IMG/VR virus record: IMGVR_UViG_3300020450_000005
Coordinates: 1-33,053 of that record
Source: a virus
Reading direction: 5' to 3' (one strand)
Length of the DNA: 33,053 nt
Shown: positions 10,547-12,465 of the stretch, in pieces
How the letters are laid out: each line of letters opens with the position of its first letter
Position numbering within the stretch: the stretch's first letter is position 1
Notes under the pieces: model-generated
Databases searched by the model: none
Told to the model about the DNA's origin: nothing
The model's input: the letters and a program-made list of their open reading frames with translations, nothing else
Position numbers and translations under genes: made by a program

Positions 10547-10585
10547 TGTTATCTCCATTTTAGTTTTGTGTTAGTAATTTAGTTT

Positions 10586-10625
10586 AGCATAAAAAAAATA
10601 TTGAATAAATAATTTTATTTATGCT
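10586..10625. promoter_or_regulatory. AT-rich inverted repeat upstream of the DUF932 gene
   Basis: Arms 10586-10599 and 10612-10625 are inverted copies matching at 13 of 14 bases (AGCATAAAAAAAAT / ATTTTATTTATGCT) around a 12-base spacer. It lies about 40 bases upstream of the DUF932 start and downstream of the minus-strand terminator at 10704. It is probably an operator or a promoter element. I find no convincing -35/-10 pair with correct spacing nearby. Confidence 0.4.
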
Positions 10626-10703
10626 GATTGAGTATGTATTGTTGTCGCAATATTTTTTTTCTGGGCGCATTCCCCCTTCCTGTGCAATGGTTCAGAACTG
10701 AGT

Positions 10704-10741
10704 ACAAAAATAGCACAACCTAGCTATAAGCTAGGTTGTGC
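10704..10741 (-). terminator. Leftward intrinsic terminator after the first early unit
   Basis: GCACAACCTAGC (10713-10724) and GCTAGGTTGTGC (10730-10741) form a perfect 12-bp stem with a 5-base loop. On the minus strand the hairpin is followed by TATTTTTG. It terminates the unit that begins at 11636 and includes the 35-aa membrane peptide gene, 6 bases after that gene's stop. Confidence 0.85.
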
Positions 10742-10747
10742 GGTTGG

Positions 10748-10855
10748 TTAGAGTAGGCAACCTATAAACACGATTGCTGTTATTAGGGTGATAAAGAAGG
10801 TGAACTCAATCACCTCCTTTACCTTCCAGTTAAGGTTACTATACCATTTAAGCAT
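10748..10855 (-). CDS. Small single-span membrane peptide (35 aa)
   Basis: ATG 10855 lies inside the last codons of the upstream gene (8-base overlap) and the frame ends at TAA 10750-10748. The peptide is MLKWYSNLNWKVKEVIEF followed by TFFITLITAIVFIGCLL. It has an amphipathic, aromatic and basic N-terminus and then one strongly hydrophobic helix. A terminator hairpin follows immediately, which argues that the transcript was shaped to include this gene. It is co-translated with the first early gene. A candidate role is early membrane takeover or superinfection exclusion, but this is only suggestion. Confidence 0.6.
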   Translation of the reverse strand: MLKWYSNLNWKVKEVIEFTFFITLITAIVFIGCLL

Positions 10856-11636
10856 CAGTTGTCTCACCCATTTTAGCAGACTCTGCTTTAGCATCTTCTA
10901 GCATCTTGGCGACTGTTGCAAACTCAGTGCTATTAGCTTTCTTTTCGTCTGCAGTCTTTAGGCTTGATGCTTCGTTGCTGATTTGAGTCAGTCTTTTTTG
11001 GAGTGACACTATGTACTGATTGGCTGTACGTCTTTCATCTGCCAATTTCTTGGTACGTTCCTCAAGCTCCTTTTGCTTAGTCCAGTGCATGTAGTCATAG
11101 TTGAAGAACAGTTTGAAACAAGCTAGCATTGCCAATTCACATTCCATGAACTTAGGAAAACCTTCTCTGTTGTTCTCAAAGACAGCCCTCTCTCTTTGGA
11201 GTTTGTTGTCGTCCATGATTGCTTGAGTGTCCTCTTGCACCTCATGTGTGTAAGTATTGACTGATTTGTACTTGTCTGTACTGTCTTTGTCCTGAATACT
11301 TTGACGATCTAGGGCTGTTTTCATGTGAACTATTGGCGATTGATTTGCCTTTGTTCTTATATTTACATTGTAGTGAGACAGTACATTCAAGATTGGGATA
11401 TAGAATCGTTCACCCCAGTATGTCCTTTTACCTACAGGGTCATACTCTACTGGTAGGATTTGCCCTGTTTTGATGTCATACTCCTCACTTGTTACAGTGT
11501 TGAGTTGGTAGTCACCACAAAGCTCTTTGAACTGTTGATATACTAGCCAAGTGATGACATTGTCAGCAGGTCGCTTATCAGTGAATGCTAGTATTGTTTT
11601 TATTGTATTATCTATTTGTTTAGTTGTATATTCCAT
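10848..11636 (-). CDS. First leftward (early) gene, unknown coiled-coil protein
   Basis: The protein is 262 aa, start ATG 11636 with AAAGGACTAACA upstream. The N-terminal 100 residues look globular (NVITWLVYQQFKELCGDY...KRTYWGERFYIPIL). The middle is polar, and the last 85 residues are a long charged helix, probably a coiled coil (QKELEERTKKLADERRTANQ, then ISNEASSLK and AKMLEDAKAESAK). There is no signal peptide or catalytic motif. Its base composition is visibly richer in G and C than neighbouring early genes, which might indicate a different origin. It is the gene next to the divergent control region, so it is probably the first expressed and could be a host-takeover protein. A TAAAAT -10-like box lies on the minus strand at 11688-11683. 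Confidence 0.75.
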   Translation of the reverse strand: MEYTTKQIDNTIKTILAFTDKRPADNVITWLVYQQFKELCGDYQLNTVTSEEYDIKTGQILPVEYDPVGKRTYWGERFYIPILNVLSHYNVNIRTKANQSPIVHMKTALDRQSIQDKDSTDKYKSVNTYTHEVQEDTQAIMDDNKLQRERAVFENNREGFPKFMECELAMLACFKLFFNYDYMHWTKQKELEERTKKLADERRTANQYIVSLQKRLTQISNEASSLKTADEKKANSTEFATVAKMLEDAKAESAKMGETTDA

Positions 11637-11703
11637 TTGTTAGTCCTTTCATTTAGAAATATATTTGAAGAAGTCTGAATACATTTTATCCAAACTATGG
11701 GAA

Positions 11704-12009
11704 CCAAAGGATTAATAAACCCTTTGGGTCAACCAAAATCGTATGCGACAAACGGTCAGCACCTTCTGTTAGGTGCGAACGGCTTGTTGCTTCTATTTTG
11801 GTTGAGGTCGCCCACTTGCCTGCGACCCTTGTCCATAGGGTTTATTGAGCCATAACCCACAATGACCCCCATCAATCCACGCAGGAAGACCACTTCAAGT
11901 GGGCTTACAAGTACTAGGGATTGTTGGGCGTGTCGCAGTGGGTACAATCGCTAGGGAGTTTGATGATGATGATATGAAATATAAAAGCTGTCACTCTAAC
12001 AGCTTTTAT
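11704..12009 (+). ncRNA. Candidate structured noncoding RNA, two helical domains plus pseudoknot
   Basis: This GC-rich island (80 of 150 bases in 11801-11950) lies in the 451-bp gap between the divergent arms. Domain 1: P1 11712-11727/11833-11848 (15 of 16 paired), P2 11729-11739/11795-11805 (11 bp), P3 11745-11751/11784-11790, P4 11759-11764/11771-11776 (6-base loop), P5 11806-11811/11822-11827. Domain 2: 11855-11860/11938-11943, 11863-11866/11932-11935, 11868-11878/11918-11928. The P5 loop CCACUUG (11812-11818) is complementary to 11896-11902, joining the domains. Wobbles in P1 (U11713-G11847), P3 (G11747-U11788) and domain 2 (U11863-G11935) pair only on the plus strand. An intrinsic terminator ends it. 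I see no tRNA, tmRNA, RNase P or group I core signature and cannot name a class. Confidence 0.65.
11981..12009 (+). terminator. Intrinsic terminator at the 3' end of the structured RNA
   Basis: ATAAAAGCTGT (11981-11991) and ACAGCTTTTAT (11999-12009) pair over 11 bases around a 7-base loop. The 3' arm supplies the U-rich run. The element is symmetric enough to work on both strands, but only the plus strand has a plausible transcript upstream. It also insulates the terminase promoter downstream. Confidence 0.65.
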
Positions 12010-12014
12010 CAAGT

Positions 12015-12031
12015 ATTCGCATCATGCGAAT
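12015..12031. promoter_or_regulatory. Operator-like dyad upstream of the late promoter
   Basis: ATTCGCAT and ATGCGAAT flank a single C, a perfect 8+1+8 dyad. It lies 20 bases upstream of the TTGACA box at 12052 and just after the terminator, a usual place for an activator or repressor site controlling the packaging and structural genes. It could also form a short hairpin. No second copy was noticed. Confidence 0.45.
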
Positions 12032-12051
12032 GAATTTCTGTTATTATGGTA

Positions 12052-12081
12052 TTGACATGGTCTTTTGGATTAGCTTAGAGT
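12052..12081 (+). promoter_or_regulatory. Likely rightward promoter for terminase and structural genes
   Basis: TTGACA at 12052-12057 is a perfect sigma-70 -35 box. TAGAGT at 12076-12081 follows with an 18-base spacer and matches TATAAT at four of six positions. The start point would fall at about 12088, the first base of the terminase small subunit ATG, so the message could be leaderless. No good Shine-Dalgarno is visible upstream of that ATG, which agrees with this. Confidence 0.5.
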
Positions 12082-12087
12082 GGGCGC

Positions 12088-12465
12088 ATGACAGTACCAG
12101 TTAAGAGCAATTTAACCCAGAAGCAGACAGCTTTGGTGGATACGTTAGTAGCAAAAGGCTGTAGCATAAAACAAGCATCAGAAGAAGCAGGATATGCTAA
12201 AGGTGAATCAGGTAGAGTGTCAGCTATGAAGGCTTTAAAGCAACCACATGTGCAACAGTATATGATGAGTCAAGTTAGCAATGCGATTGGGATTAATGCT
12301 ACAATAGCAACAGCAAAGATAATGAAGCTAGCAAATGGAGCTAAGAGTGAGTATGTACAGCTAGAAGCTAGCAAAGATATACTAGATAGAGCAGGGTATA
12401 AAGCTACAGAAAAGCACATGCATTTACACGCAGGTGATATAAAGGTAAACATAGATCTAACTTAG
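12088..12465 (+). CDS. terS: Terminase small subunit
   Basis: The protein is 125 aa. The N-terminal LTQKQTALVDTLVAKGCSIKQASEEAGYA is the helix-turn-helix of phage terminase small subunits (Terminase_2/HTH type), which recognises phage DNA. The rest is helical and would form the oligomeric ring (ATIATAKIMKLANGAKSEYV, ASKDILDRAGY). 'AAkDILDRAGYkp' is a motif common to this family near the C-terminus. The first gene of the rightward arm, it is followed by an 87-base gap, a small gene and the large subunit. Confidence 0.85.
   Translation: MTVPVKSNLTQKQTALVDTLVAKGCSIKQASEEAGYAKGESGRVSAMKALKQPHVQQYMMSQVSNAIGINATIATAKIMKLANGAKSEYVQLEASKDILDRAGYKATEKHMHLHAGDIKVNIDLT

Follow-up and report, generated by a model that had tools for sequence, protein, structure and literature searches.

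The GC-rich island at positions 11704 to 12009 of the window, which is the whole of an IMG/VR virus record of 33,053 bases, is a real, selected, and undescribed structured element, and it is probably a noncoding RNA transcribed rightwards at the early/late switch of the phage, a podovirus. The site that it occupies is a hotspot: in most of the related phages, the structured element found there is an unrelated one. This wider pattern, in which the site is fixed, the structure is kept, and the sequence is replaced, is a more interesting result than the single island, and it could not have been seen in the earlier note, which was made from one sequence. Phages of abundant ocean bacteria often have no polymerase of their own and depend on that of the host, and the timing of their gene expression is largely unexplained. 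The timing question becomes testable with a selected, undescribed RNA located at the switch and an equivalent of it in the isolate Hodr (on HTCC1062). Replacement of an RNA sequence at a fixed site while the structure is kept would be unusual and would call for an explanation such as specificity or conflict.

The element lies where the earlier note had placed it, in a divergent control region with early genes running leftwards on one side and late genes running rightwards on the other. The early genes encode a RecE-like exonuclease, a RusA-like resolvase, and a DUF932 protein, with the first gene starting at 11636, and no polymerase was found among the early proteins scanned, in agreement with that note. 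The closest isolate in the phage collection was Pelagibacter phage EXVC031P Hodr, whose TerL is 64% identical. The features of the region are as follows.

10848 to 11636, minus strand: 262-amino-acid divergent early gene; no PHROG match and only a weak, sub-threshold Pfam match
11637 to 11665, plus strand: weak candidate promoter of the RNA, TTGTTA-17-TATATT; third-best plus-strand score in the whole window
11704 to 12009, plus strand: whole structured noncoding element, the proposed noncoding RNA; z score of -6.9, substitutions avoiding paired bases (P = 6e-5), carried by only 4 contigs
11709 to 11851, plus strand: domain 1, from the minimum free energy (MFE) fold and inverted repeats I1 and I2
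11712 to 11728 with 11832 to 11848, plus strand: P1 of domain 1, 16 bp with one U-U mismatch; MFE fold and inverted repeat
11729 to 11739 with 11795 to 11805, plus strand: P2 of domain 1, 11 bp, perfect; MFE fold and inverted repeat
11745 to 11790, plus strand: inner arm of domain 1, including the hairpin at 11759 to 11776; MFE fold
11806 to 11827, plus strand: P5 of domain 1; MFE fold
11854 to 11942, plus strand: domain 2, a long irregular arm with a helix of 11854 to 11859 with 11937 to 11942 and inner helices; MFE fold
11981 to 12009, plus strand: terminator-like hairpin, possibly bidirectional, with an 11-bp stem; retained in a related contig (L001) despite a 7-nt deletion
12052 to 12081, plus strand: late promoter of terS, TTGACA-18-TAGAGT; agrees with the consensus at 10 of 12 positions
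12088 to 12465, plus strand: terS, the first late gene; terminase small subunit (phrog_2538)

The island has a GC content of 47%, compared with about 35% around it, and its plus strand folds with an MFE of -120.5 kcal/mol over 331 nt (z score of -6.87; 0 of 100 shuffles as good), so that the earlier description of a noncoding GC-rich island with a large fold holds. P1, P2, and the second arm were recovered in the MFE fold at the positions given previously. The minus strand folds nearly as well (z score of -6.05). A terminator had also been proposed at the 3' end; the 11-bp hairpin is present at that place, and the proposal is a fair but not a strong one, in that the hairpin is symmetric, its U run sits inside the stem, and the terminator scan lists it on the minus strand only. 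The proposed contact between the P5 loop (11812 to 11818) and 11896 to 11902 was not supported: the two segments are complementary and invariant among the copies compared, but a 7-nt match has a chance probability of about 14%, and the contact has a marginal net energy of about -1.5 kcal/mol before any pseudoknot penalty. Two further pairings were considered and set aside, namely, that of the P5 loop with the start of the terS mRNA, which is broken by a G-to-A change in L001, and the alternative hairpin at 11701 to 11730 (I3), which is weakened by the L001 changes. A 52-amino-acid open reading frame (11697 to 11855) overlaps the island, but it probably is not coding, because the codons that differ between the window and L001 almost all encode different amino acids, with no excess of synonymous change.

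The candidate promoter at 11637 to 11665 has an altered -35 element in L001, where it also lies 175 nt further from the RNA. Downstream of the island, the TTGAC of the late promoter was present before terS in 89 of the 89 unique relatives listed. In the relatives from L004 to L158, a late-promoter motif, TTGTGCG-TTGACA, is nearly universal about 30 to 100 nt upstream of terS. About 26 nt after it there are usually two runs of 5 to 8 G, 4 to 14 nt apart, just before terS (e.g., GGGGGGGAACACAAGGGGGGG); the window is without these G runs. Adjoining the late promoter at 12014 to 12032 of the window is a palindrome, TATTCGCATCATGCGAATG, identical in L001 and L166, that resembles a dyad operator or a second hairpin. 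On the other side of the control region, a noncoding gap of about 290 nt (10559 to 10847) behind the 262-amino-acid early gene contains a leftward terminator-like hairpin (GCACAACCTAGC...GCTAGGTTGTGC), and the early gene therefore may be its own transcription unit.

The island did not correspond to any known RNA class that we searched for. Rfam gave no match at the gathering threshold for the window or for the loci of 18 relatives, and a permissive scan of the island gave only sub-threshold chance matches (e.g., OrzO-P at 22.3 bits versus 60). ARAGORN found 0 tRNA or tmRNA genes in the window. These results bear out the earlier statement that the island could not be fitted to tmRNA, 6S, RNase P, group I, GOLLD, or ROOL. 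The Rfam models of phi29 pRNA and of the c4 antisense RNA were likewise unmatched at the gathering score in the window, and there was no match among phage records searched for similar DNA or prokaryote genomes searched for an exact pattern. Home-made covariance models of both domains, run over 97 loci (631 kb), returned nothing beyond the four known copies and the opposite strands of those copies. Searches of the open-licence literature, where absence is weak evidence, turned up no account of a pelagiphage RNA of this kind; for the related pelagiphage Polarivirus skadi, sigma-70 promoters were reported but no terminators or RNA switches (PMC10504331).

The helices of the island are under selection in the lineage of the window. 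The island sequence was found in only three other contigs, L002 (98.9% identity), L001 (93.8%), and L166 (carrying the L001 variant), which together with the window form two haplotype groups. Because only the window sequence went into the structure prediction, comparison with L001 is still a clean test. Over 280 ungapped positions there were 15 substitutions, and the proportion changed was 2 of 178 paired positions versus 13 of 102 unpaired positions (Fisher P = 6e-5). Both paired changes keep a G-C or G-U pair on the plus strand. At 11724, the L001 change converts the single U-U mismatch of P1 to A-U, and the changes at 11916 and 11917 make new pairs with 11881 and 11882 in domain 2; in the hairpin at 11759 to 11776, the loop (11765 to 11770) varies while the stem is invariant. 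The L001 fold has an energy of -109.9 kcal/mol, compared with -90.9 ± 6.2 kcal/mol for 400 sets of random substitutions of the same types introduced into the window, and it was better than 399 of these 400 controls (fraction as good, 0.003). The same test gave a similar fraction (0.007) on the minus strand and thus does not choose between strands. Element divergence was 5.4%, compared with 7.8%, 8.7%, and 16% at the fourfold sites of terS, terL, and the early gene, respectively. With only two haplotype groups, the element's own copies contain no doubly changed pair.

The earlier note had taken the plus strand as the working strand. In the window the support for this is weak, consisting of the two wobble-compatible changes, and changes at 11704, 11706, and 11834 disrupt pairs of the minus-strand fold but none of the plus-strand fold; good support comes from a syntenic family of elements, family A. 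This best-sampled family comprises 13 contigs found through the early gene (L169 to L181), in three sequence variants that are 11 to 20% apart, and it carries a 250-nt hairpin with two arms. Of the 105 pairs in the late-strand consensus, 32 show compensation on both sides, and 98.6% of cells are paired, versus 36 to 47% when the partner is slid by one to three columns. The late strand also has the lower energy (-136.3 versus -101.9 kcal/mol), while the opposite strand has more broken cells and only a few pairs with variation on one side. Two-sided compensation alone could arise from homogenization of DNA repeats, but G-U pairs are tolerated on one strand only, which such homogenization could not produce, and family A therefore most likely works as a late-strand RNA. 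Family A is syntenic with the window element but not homologous by model search, so strand and mechanism reach the window by analogy. In family A (alignment A4), a second conserved noncoding stretch of about 500 nt with long invariant blocks lies between the hairpin and the late promoter; as a further structured RNA it was rejected, with few compensated pairs.

Relatives were fetched by terS (80) and by terL (80), and their terS-upstream regions fell into more than 20 clusters that could not be aligned with one another by blastn. Stretches of 150 nt upstream of terS had a mean z score of -1.77, compared with -0.33 in downstream coding DNA of the same loci, and z scores below -3 were found in 27% of the upstream stretches versus 4% of the coding ones (Mann-Whitney P = 4e-11). 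While terS and terL are conserved (64 to 100%), the upstream element is replaced between lineages. In each of the 11 informative clusters, the late strand had more G-U than A-C (578:451, counts that are not independent), but base composition and mutation bias account for part of this excess, and the strand in the window therefore is assigned by position, not by homology. The strand energy difference over whole regions of the relatives was discarded as strand evidence, being largely base composition, and UUCG hairpins on the minus strand of the relatives proved to be mostly ordinary terminators behind the early gene. Upstream of terS in L103, L105, L107, and L091, stems are rewritten between relatives while a CUAUC or UCUAUC loop, absent from the window, is retained; this is possibly a protein-binding or kissing loop. 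Twelve of 80 contigs start no more than about 250 nt upstream of terS (e.g., L010, L011, L014, L036, L055, and L062), and assemblies may break at this variable, hairpin-rich site.

The best overall explanation, which we put forward tentatively and rate as somewhat short of probable, is that the island specifies a discrete rightward RNA of about 300 nt that regulates the passage from early to late expression, preferably as an antisense RNA to the divergent early leader. Such an RNA would be transcribed rightwards from the control region, would end at the hairpin at 11981 to 12009, shortly ahead of the distinct late promoter that serves terS, and would act on the early-to-late switch of a phage that relies on its host for RNA polymerase. 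In the preferred form, the RNA would lie opposite the early gene's leader as an antisense RNA, and early expression would be shut off, through pairing or collision, by transcription in the rightward direction; the stable fold may set both the lifetime of the RNA and the specificity of pairing, as in plasmid antisense RNAs. The antisense model would also fit the rapid turnover of sequence under a retained structure. The 5' arm of the hairpin, read on the late strand, is exactly antisense to the Shine-Dalgarno (SD) sequence and start codon of the early gene in family A, L018, L038, and Hodr. The window structure itself begins about 70 nt away from the early start codon, leaving the early SD sequence uncovered, and therefore only an early leader starting further right would overlap the RNA. 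We also observed that, in L006/L169 and in Hodr (L161:1591-1790), an SD sequence and AUG sit on the hairpin's 3' arm, and the codons after them resemble those at the beginning of the divergent early gene, as though the ribosome-binding site of that gene had been duplicated in inverted orientation. A broader proposal, which we regard as doubtful but worth stating, is that related pelagic podoviruses share a hyperdiversifying class of large structured RNAs at a fixed early/late site, with shape, strand, and position kept and sequence replaced; the window RNA would be one of more than 20 such undescribed families and would set a lineage-specific early/late or superinfection specificity.

The other explanations rank roughly in the order in which they are taken here. 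The main rival, itself unlikely, is that the element acts as DNA, as a replication origin or a packaging (pac) site, its inverted repeats folding into hairpins when the DNA is single stranded or supercoiled, with any RNA being incidental or a replication primer. A noncoding spot between divergent operons beside terS is a common location of origins and packaging sites, the phage requires the replisome of its host, and in the window the two strands fold almost equally well. The sign of the GC skew switches near the island, although the skew also tracks gene direction. The one-strand wobble tolerance of family A is unexpected for DNA hairpins, and there is no cluster of DnaA boxes (45 one-mismatch boxes in the window, compared with 66 expected from shuffles, with one in the island flank); with occurrences at the chance level, we rejected a host-type origin defined by such boxes. 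Quite unlikely is a put-like antiterminator, in which the nascent RNA would bind its own RNA polymerase and cause read-through of the 11981 to 12009 hairpin into the late operon. The order of structured RNA, terminator-like hairpin, and late genes would suit it, as would dependence on host polymerase, but terS has a promoter of its own between it and the hairpin, no sequence match is known, and size and shape differ from those of put sites, which are roughly 70 nt.

About as improbable is a leftward 5' leader of the early gene, acting from the minus strand as an attenuator or in a riboswitch-like manner. The good minus-strand fold and the minus-strand call of the terminator scan speak for it, but the three changes that break minus-strand pairs only and the late-strand preference of family A point the other way, and a leftward promoter of good score was not found right of the island within the window. 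A packaging RNA that works with terminase, as phi29 pRNA does, would explain the position directly upstream of terS in all relatives; it is nonetheless very unlikely, since a direct partner of the conserved terS and terL would hardly allow the element to be replaced, and Rfam, including the phi29-type pRNA, was unmatched. Least credible of all is a chance fold or an inverted-repeat by-product of template switching, for although inverted repeats can arise and homogenize without selection, the substitution pattern between the two haplotype groups and the strand-asymmetric compensated changes in family A both disfavor it.

Several known systems offer points of comparison for the regulatory RNA that we prefer. 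Phage HK022, which relies on host polymerase, has put RNA hairpins ahead of a terminator; the island is much larger and is separated from the late genes by a promoter. The phi29 pRNA (RF00044) is also a phage noncoding RNA; the island adjoins the terminase genes but has no match to the pRNA model. GOLLD and ROOL are likewise large structured phage noncoding RNAs, with poorly known functions (structures in PMC12286853); in contrast to them, the island is about 300 nt, is lineage restricted, and has no Rfam match. The nearest isolate, EXVC031P Hodr (OQ414635), has a divergent early gene followed by terS, with a long hairpin between them. The Hodr sequence is unrelated to that of the window, its outer stem overlaps the early gene SD sequence, and the region is not annotated as RNA. 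Antisense control RNAs, such as ColE1 RNA I/II, CopA/CopT of R1, and the phage c4 RNA (RF01695), change quickly in sequence while their shape is kept. The island is larger than these and has no sequence or model match to them, and its antisense action is putative; by analogy with them, it would be a structured RNA facing the leader of a gene that diverges from it or overlaps it.
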